Assembly: GCA_014801865.1 (NCBI GenBank)
Contig: JAAVDH010000035.1
Coordinates: 1 to 64,000, forward strand
Direction: 5' to 3'
Origin: Bacteroides sp.
GTDB lineage: Bacteria; Bacteroidota; Bacteroidia; Bacteroidales; Muribaculaceae
DNA length: 64,000 bases
Shown: piece by piece, positions 19,783 to 30,891 of the stretch
Position numbering within the stretch: position 1 is the stretch's first letter
Layout: the number at the start of each line of letters is the position of its first letter
Translations under genes and position numbers: made by a program
The notes under the pieces: model-generated
The model's input: the letters and a program-made list of their open reading frames with translations, nothing else
The model's database searches: none
What the model was told of the DNA's origin: nothing

Positions 19783-20688
19783 ATGTGGTTAACCAACTCA
19801 TCCGTGGGTAGGAAGGTGGTGATGTCAATCACAGGCCTTTGCCTTATCCTCTTTGTCACGTTTCATGCGGTGATGAACGGTGTGGCCATCTTCTGGCCGG
19901 CCGGCTATAACATGGTATGCGCATTTCTCGGTGCCAACTGGTATGCTCTCATAGCATCCATGGGCCTTGCAGCGCTCTTCATCATCCACATTATCTATGC
20001 CCTGTGGCTTACCGTACAGAATCGCAAAGCCCGTGGTAACGACCGCTACGCTGTAGTGCGCAAGCCCGAACAGGTAGAATGGTCTTCACAGAACATGCTC
20101 GTACTTGGCATCGTGGTACTCGCCTTCCTGTGTGTACACATGATTCAGTTCTGGGCAAAGATGCAGCTCGCCGAAATCATCGAGTGCAACTATGTTTACG
20201 AAGGTGTTCCCGTTCCTCCCCAGGCAGGCACATGGTTTATCCAGATTGCCTTCAGCCAGATCTGGACCCCCATCGTATACATCATCGGCTTCGTAGCCCT
20301 GTGGTTCCACATGACTCACGGCTTCTGGTCAATGTTCCAGTCAGCCGGTTGGAATAACGACACATGGCTTCCCCGCCTGAAGTGCATCGGCAACTGGTGG
20401 TGCACCATCGTTGTAGGTCTCTTCCTCGTTGAAGCTATCGTGTTTACCGTGCAGGCCAACAACGACGCTTACCTTACCAACCCCGCGCTCATCGAGCAGT
20501 ATGAAGAGTTTGCCATGGAGCAGGCTCACTGCAACGGCCCTGTTGCCGAAAGCGCTGAGGTAGTAATCGTAAACTGCGAAGAAAACTGCGCTCCCTGCAA
20601 CAACAACTGCGAGAGCAACTGCAACCCCTGCAGCAGCGACTGCAACGAATGTCAGTCAGAGTGTCAGGCAACTAATGTTAACGAATAA
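19783..20688 (+). CDS. frdC: Succinate dehydrogenase/fumarate reductase cytochrome b subunit with Cys-rich C-terminal tail
   Basis: [44 protein letters not shown]; tail [31 protein letters not shown]. Confidence 0.92.
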
Positions 20689-20708: not shown

Positions 20709-22736
20709 ATGGCAGACGTTAAGAATCTCGAGGGTATGATTGACTCTACCCCCATCATGAAGGATTTTGCCGACATCGAATCGTCAAAGCTCCCCGAATA
20801 TCAGATTGACTCTAAAATACCCGAAGGCCCCCTGGCTGAAAAGTGGACCAACTATAAGGCTCACCAGAAGCTCGTGAACCCCGCCAACAAGCGCCACCTC
20901 GACATCATCGTGGTAGGTACCGGTCTGGCAGGTGCTTCAGCAGCATCAACCCTTGCCGAACTGGGCTTCAACGTGTGGAACTTCTGCATCCAGGACTCAC
21001 CCCGCCGCGCTCACTCTATCGCAGCTCAGGGTGGTATCAATGCAGCCAAGGACTATCAGAACGACGGTGACTCCGTATATCGCCTGTTCTACGACACCAT
21101 CAAGGGCGGTGACTTCCGTTCACGCGAAGCCAACGTATATCGCCTTGCCGAAGTGTCAAACAATATCATCGACCAGTGCGTTGCTCAGGGCGTTCCCTTC
21201 GCCCGCGAATACGGCGGTCTGCTTGCCAACCGCTCATTCGGTGGTGCTCAGGTAAGCCGTACATTCTATGCCAAGGGCCAGACCGGCCAGCAGCTCCTGC
21301 TCGGTGCATACGCCTCACTCAACCGTCAGATCAAGAAGGGTCAGGTTCGCTCGTTCAACCGTCGCGAAATGCTCGACCTCGTTATCATCGACGGACGTTG
21401 CCGCGGTATCATCGTGCGCAACCTCATCACCGGCGAACTCGAACGCTACGCTGCTCACGCCGTAGTACTCGCTACCGGTGGTTATGGCCGCACATTCTTC
21501 CTTTCTACCAACGCCATGGGCTGCAACGGCTCTGCCGCCATCCAGGCCTTCAAGAAGGGTGCATACCTCAGTAACCTCGCTTTCACTCAGATTCACCCCA
21601 CATGTATCCCCGTTCACGGCGAAGACCAGAGCAAGCTCACCCTCATGAGCGAATCGCTGCGTAACGACGGTCGTATCTGGGTGCCCAAGAAGAAAGAAGA
21701 TGCCGAAGCCATCCGCGCCGGTAAGAAGCGTCCTACCGACATTCCCGACGAAGATCGCGACTTCTACCTCGAACGCCGCTATCCCGCCTTCGGTAACCTC
21801 TGCCCCCGTGACATCGCCTCACGTGCCGCTAAGGAACGTTGCGACGCAGGCTACGGTGTAGGTACCGGCAACGCCGTATATCTCGACTTCAAATATGCCA
21901 TCGAGCGTCTGGGTGCCGACGTGGTTCGCGACCGTTACGGCAACCTCTTCGACATGTATCAGATGATCTCTGATGACAACCCCTACGAGACCCCCATGAT
22001 GATCTTCCCCGCTAGCCACTACACCATGGGCGGCATCTGGGTTGACTACGAGCTCCAGACCTCTATCAAGGGTCTCTTCGCTATCGGCGAATGTAACTTC
22101 TCTGACCACGGCGCTAACCGCCTCGGTGCTTCCGCCCTCATGCAGGGTCTTGCCGACGGTTACTTCGTGCTCCCCTACACCATGCAGAACTACCTCAGCG
22201 ATCAGATCAAGGTGAAGCACCCCGGTACCGACCACCCCGAATTTGACAAGGTCGAGAAAGAGGTTAAGAACCGCATCGACCGCCTCATGGCCATCAAGGG
22301 TACACAGAGCCCCGATCAGCTCCACAAGAAACTGGGTCACGTTATGTGGGACCTCGTGGGCATGGGACGCACACTCCAGAGCCTCGTAAAGGCCGTGGAA
22401 GAAGTAGAGAAGGTACGCAAGGAATTCTACAGCGACCTGCGCATCGTAGGCAGCGCCAACGACCTCAACACCGAGCTCGAAAAGGCTCTACGTCTTGAAG
22501 ACTTCCTCGTTATGGCCAAGATGATGGCTATCGACGCCCTCCACCGCAACGAATCTTGCGGCGCACACTTCCGCGAGGAATATCAGACTGCCGACGGCGA
22601 GGCTGCACGTAACGACAAGGATTACATGTACGTAAGCTGCTGGAAGTATACCGGTGACAACGAAAAGCCCATCCTGCTCAAGGAGCCCCTCCACTACGAA
22701 GCCATCCAGGTGCAGACACGTAACTACAAGTCGTAA
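20709..22736 (+). CDS. frdA: Fumarate reductase/succinate dehydrogenase flavoprotein subunit
   Basis: [79 protein letters not shown]. Confidence 0.96.
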
Positions 22737-22778: not shown

Positions 22779-23534
22779 ATGGAACATACTATAAGCGTTA
22801 ATCTCAAGATCTGGCGTCAGCGCGGTCCCAAGGAACCGGGCCAGTTCGTCAACTATCGCGTTGAAAATGTGTCCACCGGCAGCAGCTTCCTCGAAATGCT
22901 TGACATGCTCAATCAGCAGCTGGTCGATAAAAACGAAGAACCCGTAGTGTTTGACTCAGACTGCCGCGAAGGTATCTGCGGTATGTGCTCACTGTACATC
23001 AACGGACATCCCCACGGTCCCGTGCAGGGCATCACCACCTGTCAGCTCCACATGCGTAAGTTCAACGACGGCGACACCATCACCATCGAACCCTGGCGTT
23101 CAGCCGCCTTCCCCGTGGTTCGCGACCTGATGGTAAACCGTAACGCCTTCGACCAGATACAGCAGGCCGGCGGCTACGTATCATTCAACTGCGGTGGCGC
23201 ACAGGATGCCAACAACCTCCCCATCTCTAAGGAAGTTGCCGACACCGCCATGGACTCAGCCACATGTATCGGCTGCGGCGCATGCGTAGCAGCTTGTAAG
23301 AACGGCTCTGCCATGCTCTTCGTGTCAGCCAAGGTAAGCCAGTTTGCACTCCTGCCCCAGGGCCAGGTAGAACGCAAGCGTCGTGCCCGCGCCATGGTGG
23401 CCAAGATGGACGAACTCGGCTTCGGTAACTGCACCAACACCGGTGCCTGCGCCGCTGAGTGCCCCAAGAATGTGCCCCTGAGCAACATCGCTCGCCTCAA
23501 CCGCGAGTTCATCAAGGCCAAGTGCTCTGACTAA
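22779..23534 (+). CDS. frdB: Fumarate reductase/succinate dehydrogenase iron-sulfur subunit
   Basis: [60 protein letters not shown] cluster ligands. Confidence 0.96.
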
Positions 23535-23752: not shown

Positions 23753-24805
23753 ATGAAAACTTGCACACTACTGCTTATATGTATTCTGTCGGCACTTAAT
23801 CTCTATGGATTAGAGCGACATCTGACACTTGAAGTCGAACCCGTCGATACATCTGACATTATGAATCTCCGTGTTTGGGATTTCTCCAAAGGTAAGATTC
23901 ATGGAAACTATAAGGGTGCAGAAATAATTCTACATGGTGACACGCTACTGAGTGAATCAATGGGACGTTTCAGACAATGGTACTTCATCAAGGACACATC
24001 TATATTTTATGCCGGAGAAGAGACTCCTGAACGCATTGTGACACCGTTATATCCAACACGTTGGTTCTCATTTCCTTTACAAAGCGGAGAACATAGTACA
24101 ACAACCTTACAAAACCACGGCAGAATATACTCTCGCTTTGACCTTGCCGAGGATGGCATGTATAGTATAGAAACAGGCACCAAAGGCATCGTGATATTAC
24201 CTCCCGGTGATACAATATATAATGTCATAATAACTAAAGAGTTCCGTAACGTCAAAGAAGGGATTGACAATCAGACTTCTTTCCCTTTGTCGGAATATGA
24301 CAGCCTCCCTGAAATCCATCATACGGTTTTTCGATGGTATTTGCCGAGTGATACTCTTCCCATAGCATTACAAATTGCCCGAGAGGTAAGGTCATTTGAA
24401 GGAACAGTTTTATCTAATGCCACAGCTGCCTATATACCTGATTTACTTGAAAATAATATGGATTTGTCCTACCTGTCACCCGGTATTGACGTAGAACATA
24501 ATATAAAGTCTATTCTTTCGACATTGACTGTAGAGTACCACGATGGTAACTTTGTAATTCTATTTCCCGGCATTCAGTCTTACAGTGATAAATCCATTAT
24601 ACAAAATAGATTTAATGTACAGACTCTGAATATCGACGTCATGGATATTCCCGGCAATCTCTATAAACATGCCGTCACCCTTCTCCCGGAAGAAGGGACG
24701 ATAAATATTCCCGTTTCCAGTCTACCGGCAGGAAAATATGTGGTAGGGATAAGAAGTGAAGCATACCCTGAATTTACCGAAAAGCGCTTTATAAATATCT
24801 TTTGA
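23753..24805 (+). CDS. Secreted protein with T9SS-type-A-like C-terminus, accessory to Rhs gene
   Basis: Signal peptide MKTCTLLLICILSALNLYG; C-term INIPVSSLPAGKYVVGIRSEAYPEFTEKRFINIF; stop overlaps/abuts the Rhs start. Confidence 0.5.
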   Translation: MKTCTLLLICILSALNLYGLERHLTLEVEPVDTSDIMNLRVWDFSKGKIHGNYKGAEIILHGDTLLSESMGRFRQWYFIKDTSIFYAGEETPERIVTPLYPTRWFSFPLQSGEHSTTTLQNHGRIYSRFDLAEDGMYSIETGTKGIVILPPGDTIYNVIITKEFRNVKEGIDNQTSFPLSEYDSLPEIHHTVFRWYLPSDTLPIALQIAREVRSFEGTVLSNATAAYIPDLLENNMDLSYLSPGIDVEHNIKSILSTLTVEYHDGNFVILFPGIQSYSDKSIIQNRFNVQTLNIDVMDIPGNLYKHAVTLLPEEGTINIPVSSLPAGKYVVGIRSEAYPEFTEKRFINIF

Positions 24806-24807
24806 CC

Positions 24808-27800
24808 ATGAACCGACTAATAGTTATATTCATTACCCTATTGGCGACTCTTGGAATACAAGGTTATGCACAATCGGAAAATACACCGGTAGCACCTCTC
24901 AACAGCAACTATGTTCCTGAGACACCGAGTATCTGGAAACACCATCAGGCTAATTTACCGACTCCTGCACTTCTTACAGGTGCTGCTACTTTCGAGGTAC
25001 CTCTGTACACTCTGAAATTCCATGATATTACGTTACCGTTTACACTGAGTTATCGTTCTAACGGCATACGACTCAATGATGATCCATATCCATGCGGCTA
25101 TGGATGGACTTTACTCCCATCTCTACGTATAACCCGCACTATTAAGGGACGTCCTGATGAGATTTATCCCAGATATAATTATGGTGGAGACATTGACAAC
25201 GAAACATTTTTCAATTGTATGATTGAAGACAAGTCAGGAAGTTCTCACAAGGATTACTGGGACTCACAACATGATATTTTTACCATTATTCTTCCGGACA
25301 AAACCATACCTATGCTATATGACGACGGTCATTTTTATGGGGTTGACTGTGATGAATACCTTGTAGAGTTCAAATATTTAGGAGATGATGTGCCTGATGG
25401 GATTGTCGTAAAAGATCCGCAAGGATATACATATTACTTTCAGGCTGAAGGAGGGGAATACTATATCAATGAAAAGAATCGCACCGAATGGCTTCTACAT
25501 TCAATCACAGCTCCATCCGGTGATGAACTTACGTTCGCATGGACGCAGTGGAACTATACAACGGGCCATAAGCATCTACGACAGAGAGCGCTCAATCCGG
25601 CTCAAGTACGTTGTACCAGCGAATGGAGAAATGGACAGGCTGCCACTCCTGATTTTTCAAATCCCATCGGTACTCTTTCTGCCCAAAACTACGGTGGATC
25701 AAATCTAGTAGAAGTCAGTGGTGCAGGTGTCACTCTGACATTTTCCTATAACACCGATATGTTAACCGGAATGAAAGTATCATTCTATAATCCGTTCGAT
25801 GACAGTCGCTCCGAAGACAACATTAATATCACATTTTCTTATAATAAAAATTCTAAATTTCTTCTTGATCAGGTAAACCACGATACAGACGGAGTATATC
25901 GATTTGACTACCATACTCCTAACAATTGTACTAATCGTTTTGATGCTGAAATCACCAATTCATTTGAAGTTTCTCCTTATCAGGATTGGTGGGGATACTA
26001 TAATTATAATCCCAACGAAGATTCAAATCCTACATTGAACACATCTAATCCTCAGCCGATAGTCAAGTTCAAAAATCTCGAAGGGCACACTTTTAAGAAA
26101 GGTTACTACGAAACTCCTGGTTCTCCAAGAGAACCCTACGAACCCTCTATGTTGGCGTATACACTTAAAAGCGCAACGATTCCTACCGGAGGAAAAATTG
26201 AATGGAAGTATGAAATGCATAGATTTCCCAAAACGACTACCTTAAACTATATTTCCGGATCCTTATATAAAGAACCGGAACTTAGTGAGGGTGGTGGCCT
26301 ACGCGTGAAGGAGATTCTTATGTACTCCCCAACAGACATACAACGCAGTACCAAAAGAACTTACAAATATGGTATAAACGGTGATGGAAACGCAGTATGT
26401 AAGATTGTGCCATCTCTATCAACATTCATAACACAGCAGACGTCTGTAAACTTCTATGAGGACAACTTTCCACTTATTGGTCTTCCAGAGACCTACGTAG
26501 AGAAAATGCCTGTTTATAACATCAGTGTAAATTCTGATTACTTGTCATATCTTGGTGGCACGATGCCGATTTGGTATCAGGAGGTAACAGAAATCTATGA
26601 TGAAGGTAAGACTGTCACTTCATACGACTACCAAATAACTGATAATGAGGTACAAAACGACACATATTACACTTACCTTAAAAAATCGAGTAGACTACTC
26701 TCTAAAGGTCCACAGATAACAAAACGCGTTACATACAAGAATGATGATTCAAATCAATATGTACCAGTTACGACTGAAATATATGAATATGATGTAACTT
26801 CCGGTAATACTCTTCCGGACTTGTCTATTACACGAGATTATTATCAGATTCAATGTCCCACGACGGCTCCTGATTTAAGTGCAACCAGCCCATTCGTATT
26901 TGATACCCATACCGTTCCTTATGAGGGATGTCCCGCAGAGGGAGAGAAAGGTAAATCATTCTACTTCGATAAATATTTCTTTTTATACAAATACGGTGAG
27001 ACCTATGTCATTCCTTGTCGCGAACGTCTTTCAAAAAAGACAGTGACTTTACACACCGACAATGGTGACTACACAACGTGGGAGAAATACGGCTACGTCA
27101 ATGGCACATCACTCATAAGCAAAATCGAACGCTCTATGAGTGACACTACAGCACAATACTCACAGGCAATTAGCTACACACCTGATGACGTTACTGTTGC
27201 CACCGCAATGAAGAAACTGAACATGACGGGTATACCTGTAAAGACTACCACAAATTACGGTAATGCGGTAACCTCTGAATCCTATACCATGCACAATCCT
27301 TTCGAGGGCATAATTGTACCACGGGCATTCACTCTTACACGTGGAGGAACATCATATACCCCGGCTACATATCGCCATGACCTAAACGGCAACCTCATCG
27401 AGACTCTGCGAGAAGACCAAACTGTCACTTCGTGCATATGGGGATATGCAGGTCTTTATCCTGTCCATCAGGTTGAGGGGTTGAATATAGCATCACTTAC
27501 TTCCCAACTTCGTACTTCCGGCGTTGACACTGACCCCATCCTATTCGGCGAAGGTGAGTTGCTCAATCTTGACGGGATTAAGAATCAGGCACTCATCACA
27601 TCAATGAAGTGGTTGCCAGGAGAAGGAGTTACATCCATCCGGTATCCGACAGGAATAACCCATGGCTTTGGATACGATACCCAGGGGCGACTTAACCGGA
27701 CATGGATCAACAGTGATACATTGACGACCACGGCCTATAATATCGGTTTGAAAAATGGTTCATGGTATGACCAACGCAAGTGGCTTGACCGCAGCGGAAC

Positions 27801-30800
27801 AAACAATATCATCACCATAGAGAATCTTGATGCCCTCGGACGCTCCTCCACTACTGTTACGCAAGCCAATGGTGAGTATATAGCCACTCTAAAGACCTAC
27901 GACCGTATGGGGCGTCAGGTTCAGGATTGGAATGCCACACCGGTCGGCTCATTGCATCCTTCGGAAAACGAGGTGTATGCTTCCGCTACTGAGTTTTATG
28001 GAGATAACGCACCGTATATGACCACTCTCTACGAGAAGTCATCAAGGGAACAGGCTGTCGGTTATATCAAACAGGGGGCCGAGTGGGCTACACATCCTTC
28101 AACTGTAAGACAGTTGACAAATACAGGTTCCGAGGTCAGAAACACAGATTATCGTGCACCGCGATATACAGTTACATCTGATGGTATAACCTATGCAAAA
28201 CCCTATCCGACAGGCACACTTTTGGTAAAGGAAGAAATTGACGAAGATGGAGTTACCCTCCAGACCTATACCGACATGCGTGGTCTCAAAGTTCTTGAGC
28301 GACGTGGCAAAAAAGGCAGTTGGCTTGATACACGTTATATCTATAACGATTACGGTGAACTATGCTACATTCTTCCTCCGGCAGTGAGCGCCAACAAAAG
28401 TCTCAAGCGCACTGACTCCGAGATGAGAGATTACGCATACTGGTACGACTACGATACCCGTGGCAATGTCACACTTCGCAAATTACCCGGTCGTGATGCA
28501 ATTAAGTACACTTACGACCCGGCAGGTCGCCTTGTATTCATGCAGGATGGTAATATGAGCGCCAAAGGAGAGCGAATCGTTTATCTCTACGACCGTTATG
28601 GCCGTAAGGTTGTTACCGCGCGTGTCGGCTGGACCGAAAGTCAGATAAAAACTTTCCTTGAGAAAGTTCGTACAGCCACATGGTCTGGGAACCGCTATAT
28701 CGGTCAGGGTTATACTATTCCGGATTTTAAGGAAACACTCGAGATGGTCTCATACAACGACGCCGGACAGGTAAATTCCCGTACAAACGGTGTTGTTACA
28801 ACCCAGTATACATATGACTCCCGCGGTCGGGTAAGTAAGACTTACGAAATCAATAATACCGTCGGTTTTAGCATCACTCGTGAGTATGCCTACTCTTATA
28901 CTGACAAGCCACTTACATGCCTGACGACATACGATGCATCTTCATTTAGTATACGTCCGACCCTTACGGAATTCATATATGACAGCGCTGACCGTTTGAT
29001 TACCACACGAGTGCGCCAGGGGACATCATTCAAGCCATTCCCTGCGGCACCATCATCGCCCGGAGATACCGTAAGTATTATTAACAATACATACGATGCT
29101 ATCGGACGTCTTACTGATATCCGGCTCGGCTCCTCTATAAACCGTAAACAATCTTACGATGTTCATGGTTGGCAAACTTCATTGCTGACCAAATGCGGTT
29201 CAACAGACATTGCTGCATTTGATGAATCACTAACTATTCCATTCCGAAGCGAGATATCGGAGATTGACACTACGGAGAAGAAAATCGAAGATACGGCTGA
29301 TAATAACGGCGTCGTTATAGGTCCTGTTGATTTCCTGTCACCCTTTAGCATCAATGAAACACTTGAATATGCTTCAGGCTCAGAGCCTCGTTACAACGGT
29401 AATATATCGTCGCGCACTCTCTCCGAGGGTTCATATAACTACACGTACGACATTCATAACCGACTGCAGCGTGCCACTTTCAAGGCATCTGGAAACAACA
29501 CTGCGAACTATTCTACCTCATACTCCTACGACTCAAATTCTAACCTCACTTCGCTGACTCGCAGCGGTGTTACCGACATAACCGGTACAGTCCGCACCTA
29601 CGGGTCTCACGAAGAACTATATTACATGCGTTCAGGCAACCAACTGACAGCCATAGGAGCAAGTGTTGCAGGCGCAGCCTATGAAGGTCGTACAGGTATA
29701 GGTGAAGATGGCACATGGGATATATCATATGATGCAAACGGCAATGTCAGTGTAGATGGCACACGCGACATCGCCTCAATAACTTATAATCATCTTGACC
29801 AACCGGAAACCATTTCTTTCGGTAACGGCACAAAACTGATAAACTCCTATGACGGAGCAGGACGTAAATTCCGCACTATTCTAACCGACGCAACAGGACG
29901 CACGGTACTGACACGCGATTATGTCGGCGATGCTATAGTTGATAACGGACGTGTAGTGATGACCCGTTTTTCCGGAGGTTATTTTGACAGCTCCGGTAAG
30001 GTCAACTATTACATAACAGACTATCAGAACAATATCATACGTACTGTAAGGCCCAACGGCATAATAGTACAGGATGCGGACTATTACCCCGACGGAGAAC
30101 TGTGGGAAGAACCCTCGGCGGAAAATCCATATCTATTCGGCGGAAAAGAGCGTGTAACACTTGGGGGACTTCGCATGGATGATTTCGGTGCACGCATCTA
30201 CCACTCGGCCATCGCCACATGGATGCAACCAGACCCCATGTGTGAACACACACCCCACATCTCACCCTATACCTACTGCAACGGTAACCCTATAATGCTT
30301 ATCGACCCAACAGGACGTCTCGTTGAAGCCGCCAACGACAGCGTAAACATGACTACTACAAAAAAAGGCGTTGAATACCATCACCTAAACACAATTACTA
30401 CTAAAAGGATTCCAATTATATCTGATATTCACGATTTTATTTTCCCTGATCATAATGATAATCATGCTGAGGACATAAAAGATGCCGGAACAGTTGCAGG
30501 AGCTGCTTCAGGACAGGCATCAATGAGAGAAAGTATGATGAATCGGACTTCACAAAAATCGACAGGCGCAACTATATCGAATAGTAATAGCGAAGGAGAG
30601 ATAGTAAATTCATATGGAAGAGGGAAAATTAAGGCTATTAATTATATAGGAAAAGTTGCCAATGGTGTAGCGCTAGTGTCTTCTCTTGACAGATTGTATC
30701 ATGATATTACAGACAGAGATCAGATTATAGTTCCAATAATCAGAACAAGCACTGATATTGTTATGATGCTAATTCCAGTAGCAGGGCCGTATGGAATTGC

Positions 30801-30891
30801 AATAAGTGTTGGATATCAGATTTTCGATATTAAATATGGAGATAAGGTATGGCATAGTTTAGAGAAGCCTACCAACACTCCAAACTATTGA
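24808..30891 (+). CDS. Rhs/YD-repeat polymorphic toxin with Sec signal peptide and variable C-terminal tip
   Basis: Many YD repeats (YDRYGRKV, YDSRGRVSKTYE, YDIHNRLQRATF, YDANGNVSVDG, YDGAGRKFR); Rhs core LFGGKERVTLGGLRMDDFGARIYHSAIATWMQPDPM...YTYCNGNPIMLIDPTGR, then a ~188-aa unique tip. Confidence 0.92.
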   Translation: MNRLIVIFITLLATLGIQGYAQSENTPVAPLNSNYVPETPSIWKHHQANLPTPALLTGAATFEVPLYTLKFHDITLPFTLSYRSNGIRLNDDPYPCGYGWTLLPSLRITRTIKGRPDEIYPRYNYGGDIDNETFFNCMIEDKSGSSHKDYWDSQHDIFTIILPDKTIPMLYDDGHFYGVDCDEYLVEFKYLGDDVPDGIVVKDPQGYTYYFQAEGGEYYINEKNRTEWLLHSITAPSGDELTFAWTQWNYTTGHKHLRQRALNPAQVRCTSEWRNGQAATPDFSNPIGTLSAQNYGGSNLVEVSGAGVTLTFSYNTDMLTGMKVSFYNPFDDSRSEDNINITFSYNKNSKFLLDQVNHDTDGVYRFDYHTPNNCTNRFDAEITNSFEVSPYQDWWGYYNYNPNEDSNPTLNTSNPQPIVKFKNLEGHTFKKGYYETPGSPREPYEPSMLAYTLKSATIPTGGKIEWKYEMHRFPKTTTLNYISGSLYKEPELSEGGGLRVKEILMYSPTDIQRSTKRTYKYGINGDGNAVCKIVPSLSTFITQQTSVNFYEDNFPLIGLPETYVEKMPVYNISVNSDYLSYLGGTMPIWYQEVTEIYDEGKTVTSYDYQITDNEVQNDTYYTYLKKSSRLLSKGPQITKRVTYKNDDSNQYVPVTTEIYEYDVTSGNTLPDLSITRDYYQIQCPTTAPDLSATSPFVFDTHTVPYEGCPAEGEKGKSFYFDKYFFLYKYGETYVIPCRERLSKKTVTLHTDNGDYTTWEKYGYVNGTSLISKIERSMSDTTAQYSQAISYTPDDVTVATAMKKLNMTGIPVKTTTNYGNAVTSESYTMHNPFEGIIVPRAFTLTRGGTSYTPATYRHDLNGNLIETLREDQTVTSCIWGYAGLYPVHQVEGLNIASLTSQLRTSGVDTDPILFGEGELLNLDGIKNQALITSMKWLPGEGVTSIRYPTGITHGFGYDTQGRLNRTWINSDTLTTTAYNIGLKNGSWYDQRKWLDRSGTNNIITIENLDALGRSSTTVTQANGEYIATLKTYDRMGRQVQDWNATPVGSLHPSENEVYASATEFYGDNAPYMTTLYEKSSREQAVGYIKQGAEWATHPSTVRQLTNTGSEVRNTDYRAPRYTVTSDGITYAKPYPTGTLLVKEEIDEDGVTLQTYTDMRGLKVLERRGKKGSWLDTRYIYNDYGELCYILPPAVSANKSLKRTDSEMRDYAYWYDYDTRGNVTLRKLPGRDAIKYTYDPAGRLVFMQDGNMSAKGERIVYLYDRYGRKVVTARVGWTESQIKTFLEKVRTATWSGNRYIGQGYTIPDFKETLEMVSYNDAGQVNSRTNGVVTTQYTYDSRGRVSKTYEINNTVGFSITREYAYSYTDKPLTCLTTYDASSFSIRPTLTEFIYDSADRLITTRVRQGTSFKPFPAAPSSPGDTVSIINNTYDAIGRLTDIRLGSSINRKQSYDVHGWQTSLLTKCGSTDIAAFDESLTIPFRSEISEIDTTEKKIEDTADNNGVVIGPVDFLSPFSINETLEYASGSEPRYNGNISSRTLSEGSYNYTYDIHNRLQRATFKASGNNTANYSTSYSYDSNSNLTSLTRSGVTDITGTVRTYGSHEELYYMRSGNQLTAIGASVAGAAYEGRTGIGEDGTWDISYDANGNVSVDGTRDIASITYNHLDQPETISFGNGTKLINSYDGAGRKFRTILTDATGRTVLTRDYVGDAIVDNGRVVMTRFSGGYFDSSGKVNYYITDYQNNIIRTVRPNGIIVQDADYYPDGELWEEPSAENPYLFGGKERVTLGGLRMDDFGARIYHSAIATWMQPDPMCEHTPHISPYTYCNGNPIMLIDPTGRLVEAANDSVNMTTTKKGVEYHHLNTITTKRIPIISDIHDFIFPDHNDNHAEDIKDAGTVAGAASGQASMRESMMNRTSQKSTGATISNSNSEGEIVNSYGRGKIKAINYIGKVANGVALVSSLDRLYHDITDRDQIIVPIIRTSTDIVMMLIPVAGPYGIAISVGYQIFDIKYGDKVWHSLEKPTNTPNY

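Follow-up and report, generated by a model that had tools for sequence, protein, structure and literature searches.

The question raised by this locus is what a cysteine-rich C-terminal tail is doing on the cytochrome b subunit of a fumarate reductase (FrdC), and whether it is a maintained part of the enzyme at all. In the window, i.e., the whole stretch of 64,000 nucleotides that was analysed, the frame encoding this subunit runs from an ATG start to a TAA stop (Table 1). The product is an ordinary type B FrdC with a recurrent, selected Cys-rich appendage, for which no description was found in the open-licence literature; nothing relevant was found there on Muribaculaceae FrdC, on Cys-rich complex II tails or on Bacteroidales Cys tails. 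The C-terminal sequence with ten cysteines given in the original prediction agrees exactly with the translated frame, and the position assigned to it is right to within two codons (H249-C250 are encoded at 20527-20532).

Table 1. Positions of the frdCAB genes and of the parts of the FrdC tail in the window
Feature	Position	Strand	Basis
frdC/sdhC, quinol:fumarate reductase (or succinate dehydrogenase) cytochrome b subunit, b558 family, 301 aa	19783..20688	+	TIGR02046, AF2/Foldseek, invariant His
Tail proximal stalk, residues 225-250, short helix common to Cys and non-Cys tail classes	20455..20532	+	AF2 helix 234-250; family consensus
Tail variable part, residues 251-301, predicted disordered, bears nine-Cys ladder	20533..20685	+	AF2 pLDDT about 40-55 from residue 251; sequence direct
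Two degenerate 33-nt (11-aa) tandem units inside the ladder	20575..20640	+	23/33 nt identical; TRF period 33, 2.2 copies
frdA/sdhA flavoprotein subunit	20709..22736	+	NF005749 / PRK07573, 1130 bits
frdB/sdhB iron-sulfur subunit	22779..23534	+	NF005746 / PRK07570, 417 bits

The body of the protein is that of a normal FrdC, as had been assumed. The TIGR02046 profile covers residues 6-224 with 187.1 bits against a curated cut-off of 96, and residues 225-301 are extra. The AF2 model has five membrane helices and the diheme fold, and its best Foldseek match is the Chloroflexus SDH subunit C, 9lay_C (E=3.7e-7), with 2bs3_C and 5xmj_C found at weaker E-values. The FrdC alignment shows no variation in the heme-ligand His columns (H28, H69, H119 and H176/H179); the first three are numbered identically to the assigned ligands of Prevotella bryantii FrdC, whose H172 is assumed to correspond to H176/H179 (PMC10739449). 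Since the genes for the flavoprotein and iron-sulfur subunits come next, the first of them after a gap of 20 nt, the frdCAB (sdhCAB) operon is intact and the tail does adjoin a respiratory complex. No metal-homeostasis gene was recognised among the ORFs flanking frdCAB, which were read without a profile search. Downstream of frdB lies a 2029-aa ORF (24802-30891) in which YD/Rhs-like repeats are seen by eye, preceded by a 350-aa ORF (23753-24805).

The tail of the window FrdC comprises 77 residues (225-301) beyond the fifth TM helix, and the helix at its base is modelled with a pLDDT of 91 over residues 241-250. Ten cysteines fall within the last 53 residues of the protein, from which Phe, Trp and Tyr are absent. 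Nine of the cysteines form the ladder C-X3-C-X2-C-X3-C-X3-C-X2-C-X3-C-X2-C-X3-C (spacings 3,2,3,3,2,3,2,3), in which CX2C and CX3C are present and CXC is absent. The nine-Cys ladder of the original prediction is thus real; its strict alternation is not, two consecutive CX3C occurring once. When the tail was used as a query against 41 genomes, only the tail itself and one weak match in a 42-aa open frame were returned. A mobile domain common to other genes was considered and rejected, no comparable Cys tail being found elsewhere in that search or in a 330-gene sample from a relative.

Within the family of the window, Muribaculaceae, FrdC was recovered in 368 of the 397 sampled genomes, and the best-matching named records are Muribaculaceae or are labelled Bacteroidales or Porphyromonadaceae. 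Two records titled Lachnospiraceae and Staphylococcus sp. (L056, L067) bear a Muribaculaceae-type frdCAB and look like mislabelled metagenome assemblies. Tail classes were counted on 130 distinct proteins whose frames were followed as far as the stop. Of these, 59 carry three or more tail cysteines (median nine), so that the comparison of orthologs proposed originally reveals a recurrent feature. In another 58 the tail measures 25 residues or more and includes zero to two cysteines; these tails are longer and mostly helical. The remaining 13 proteins stop at or near TM5, the core being followed by fewer than 25 residues. A frameshift or strain-specific artefact is ruled out by in-frame tails in dozens of independent genomes.

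The Cys tails have no repeat unit in common (VECDGT, CDGTVE, AGEQNC, GHNHGDACK, CEKACEKA, CPNGPCPDGAP, CASDNCASDNC, CCGKCAAEGQE and others), and some combine His with Cys, e.g., HHEGCTGNHEGC and the GHNHGDACK type. At locus L094, from the cultured Muribaculaceae strain Isolate-013 NCI, the tail has 17 cysteines. Most Cys-poor tails are about 100-160 aa long, and many retain just one Cys, flanked as C-P-D or C-K-D; structure prediction for one of these tails, made from its relatives, gave three confident helices with pLDDT above 90. At L057:3173-3601 and other non-Cys FrdC loci the tail takes the form of a roughly 100-aa domain, predicted with confidence to have three helices and often containing one Cys. 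Both Cys and Cys-poor tails open with the stalk consensus Y-x-x-x-P-x-L-x-x-Q-Y-x-E. On the tree of FrdC cores the Cys label changes at least 18 times, or 12 times when well-supported branches alone are counted, and in a quick tree rooted with related families the ancestral tail state is ambiguous between Cys and non-Cys. Gene order in the tailless operons is identical to that in the tailed ones. A tail hidden behind the stop of the tailless loci was looked for and rejected, the stop leading straight into the frdA leader.

Relatives outside the family were represented by 67 FrdCs from other Bacteroidales families, divided by similarity rank into the 27 closest and 40 more distant. None of the 67 has a long tail, with one clear exception, L236 (G448, family f53), whose own long tail contains CDKPCDKPCQGDKPC and CDKPCDKPC repeats; this tail, CCPKGKPEVHNQCQSGQHGDKPCDKPCDKPCQGDKPCQNEGK, is probably an independent long Cys tail outside Muribaculaceae. 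A Cys just past TM5 occurs in 16 of the 27 closest relatives. This compares with 2 of the 40 distant FrdCs (p = 1e-6) and with 8.6% of proteins generally (p = 4e-11); both p-values overstate independence, since the rows are related to one another and similarity rank was used to separate near from far. Short Cys-bearing ends such as SLCCGAAC, SLCCSGCCPA (LCCSGCCPA in L226), GLCGAC and FCSCCCTGCC (L241) are found among L217-L241. Read most simply, this suggests that a periplasmic C-terminus bearing Cys came before the long tails, which Muribaculaceae elaborated from it.

Selection was followed in pairs of FrdCs with at least 88% core identity. Pooled pN/pS is 0.34 in the tail and 0.08 in the core, with synonymous change (pS) of 0.52 in the tail vs. 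0.38 in the core. Among aligned tail positions, Cys is identical at 188 of 224 (84%) vs. 1263 of 1798 (70%) for other residues, a contrast that is moderate and alignment dependent, the close-pair comparisons sharing rows and not all being independent. Identity-only scoring was also applied because BLOSUM62 favours Cys, and in the 14 pairs aligned in this way Cys is kept at 116 of 133 positions (87%) vs. 768 of 999 (77%) for the others (Fisher p=0.007, to be read as a guide as the pairs share members). Silent switches between TGC and TGT are seen at 38 of these 116 kept cysteines. The tails are under purifying selection at the protein level, and Cys is kept better than other residues. Tail length shifts by in-frame tandem duplication: close relatives differ by in-frame steps, often of whole repeats, and TRF detects a tandem array in 28 of the 59 Cys tails, 27 of them with a period that is a multiple of three.

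Family-wide, Cys makes up 15.2% of the variable part of the tail vs. 1.1% of residues in the background sample (400 kb and 330 genes of the relative G201), where the C-terminus of FrdC is the most Cys-rich of all. Aromatic residues and Arg are almost absent from the Cys tails, and His clusters in some of them. The most favoured family-wide spacing is CX4C (162 observed, 41 expected), followed by CX5C (63 and 35, 1.8x) and CX3C (66 and 48, 1.4x); CXXC is not enriched (54 and 57.5), and CXC was observed 8 times where 68 were expected. With CX4C fourfold enriched and CXC nearly absent, these are not the motifs of classical metallothioneins or ferredoxins. A Pfam search with ten tails gave no metallothionein match, and a PDB search with the window tail gave none, so the label "metallothionein-like" does not survive as a motif claim. 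The window tail also lacks the ferredoxin CX2CX2CX3CP motif, any match to the Fer4 profile of Pfam, and the CXXCH heme-attachment motif of c-type cytochromes. Because the motif and profile tests for all three families failed, the tail is treated as an appendage of the quinol:fumarate reductase (QFR) and not as a member of any of them.

The side of the membrane on which the tail lies can be deduced from related enzymes. The FrdC of Desulfovibrio gigas has five TM helices, and the loop helix following the first of them is periplasmic (PMC6175931), which places the C-terminus in the periplasm as well. Wolinella-type enzymes oxidise menaquinol on the periplasmic side (PMC10739449; PMC8516057). By this analogy the tail is predicted to exit the membrane on the periplasmic, menaquinol side. 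Fe-S clusters are normally built in the cytoplasm, and a cluster in a tail so placed is therefore unlikely. The Fe-S binding that had been suggested loses ground on this account and for want of the ferredoxin motif, and a cytoplasmic Fe-S domain is disfavoured by the predicted topology together with the motif absence.

We propose, as plausible at somewhat less than an even chance, that the tail is a disordered thiolate segment beside the quinol site that binds soft metals or thiol-reactive compounds and thereby protects or buffers the enzyme. The accessory C-terminal extension of Muribaculaceae FrdC would leave the membrane on the menaquinol side. In the window and about half of the family it bears regularly spaced Cys, sometimes with His, in an acidic stretch that is poor in aromatics and predicted to be disordered, and the short helical stalk would hold it to the complex. 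Selection retains many thiols at short regular spacing, not the intervening residues, and the number of repeats varies through in-frame tandem duplication. Such a tethered thiolate brush could bind Zn, Cu or Fe, or capture thiol-reactive or oxidising species next to the site of quinol oxidation, and in this way might protect or buffer QFR. It is from composition alone that we infer metal or thiol chemistry in the tail and a part in protection. That the cysteines are retained and regularly spaced suggests that the thiols matter, and an accessory role fits better than a catalytic one because the tail is dispensable in some relatives. The 13 FrdCs without a tail and the many relatives with a helical Cys-poor domain instead count against the metal or thiol reading, as do the absence of a metallothionein match in profile or structure searches and of a recognised metal-homeostasis gene beside frdCAB. 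More doubtful is the wider proposal that QFR evolved a thiolate domain in the periplasm, hypervariable and probably derived from a short Cys-ended Bacteroidales C-terminus; this domain would bind metal or reactive sulfur or oxygen species and modulate quinol oxidation, its repeat number being tuned by tandem duplication.

Four other explanations were ranked by estimated chance, here taken in descending order. The cysteines may be joined in disulfides, whether inside the tail, between the halves of the QFR dimer or to a partner protein, and so act as a periplasmic structural staple or redox switch. This is unlikely, even with the predicted periplasmic location, the A2B2C2 dimers formed by QFRs of this type (PMC6175931) and a gene for a VKOR-like disulfide oxidase in the genome of the window itself (G000:C7:30626-30994) and in 23 of the 34 genomes of the genus. 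An even number of cysteines is not preferred (33 even, 26 odd among the 59 tails), the nearly complete Cys-tail genomes G018, G029 and G032 have neither a VKOR nor a DsbB match, and VKOR is present in G023 and G024, whose tails are Cys-poor; with neither an even-Cys preference nor a link between Cys tails and VKOR, intramolecular disulfides are not favoured. DsbB had no match in any of the 34 genomes, and DsbA-family matches were also obtained beside this survey. It is likewise improbable that replication slippage made the repeats in an existing extension, with Cys as a by-product of little function. The hypervariability of the tail, its frequent loss or replacement, the common tandem arrays and the fast evolution between cysteines would all be expected of such a near-neutral sequence, but a pN/pS of 0.34, the retention of Cys despite silent codon changes, an about 13-fold Cys enrichment in unrelated repeat units, the regular CX4C spacing across lineages and the C-terminal Cys already found in related families argue against it.

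An assembly role for the tail, whether Cys-rich or helical, ranks third and is also rather improbable. Here the tail would anchor QFR to a periplasmic or membrane partner, e.g., the NQR complex, and Cys would be secondary; an NQR-QFR supercomplex has been shown in P. bryantii (PMC8516057), the stalk is common to both tail classes and one relative has a confident helical tail domain. Against docking, the closest relatives outside Muribaculaceae mostly have no long tail, and the Cys tail is predicted to be disordered, is hypervariable and offers no constant contact surface. The position of the tail coding sequence directly upstream of frdA would suit an RNA-level element, in which the stretch of Cys codons works at the level of the mRNA, or by Cys-tRNA-dependent pausing ahead of frdA, and not as protein. 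This is very improbable indeed, as the predicted RNA structure is ordinary (z = -1.10, 29 of 200 shuffles as good), synonymous sites of the tail change at least as fast as those of the core, and tailless operons keep the same gene order.

The function of the tail is directly testable since natural tailless and helical-tail relatives exist. The frdCAB of B. thetaiotaomicron has already been expressed in a laboratory E. coli frd sdh mutant (PMC5210497). Muribaculaceae are abundant in the gut, and their succinate and propionate production has fumarate reductase at its centre. A Cys-loaded appendage of complex II points to some metal, redox or sulfur chemistry in the periplasm, on the quinol side; if the wider proposal is true, the thiolate domain would give complex II an accessory module of a new kind.

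Among known systems, the window FrdC shares its fold, five TM helices, heme-ligand His and frdCAB gene order with the type B (diheme) QFR FrdC / SdhC b558 subunits of Wolinella succinogenes (2BS3), D. gigas (5XMJ), Chloroflexus aurantiacus (9LAY) and P. bryantii. The solved type B chains, however, are 212-254 aa long and have no extension, whereas the window protein adds its 77 residues with ten cysteines after the last TM helix. Metallothioneins resemble the tail in being Cys-rich, repeat-like, aromatic-poor and disordered without ligand, the last of which is predicted for the tail; they differ from it in that CX4C dominates in the tail and CXC is nearly absent, and in that the tail is tethered to a membrane enzyme, predicted to be periplasmic and without a profile match. 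The short Cys-ended FrdC C-termini of other Bacteroidales have their Cys right after TM5 and are predicted to share the side of the membrane with the Muribaculaceae tails, but comprise only a few residues, whereas the Cys tails of Muribaculaceae extend over about 30-125.
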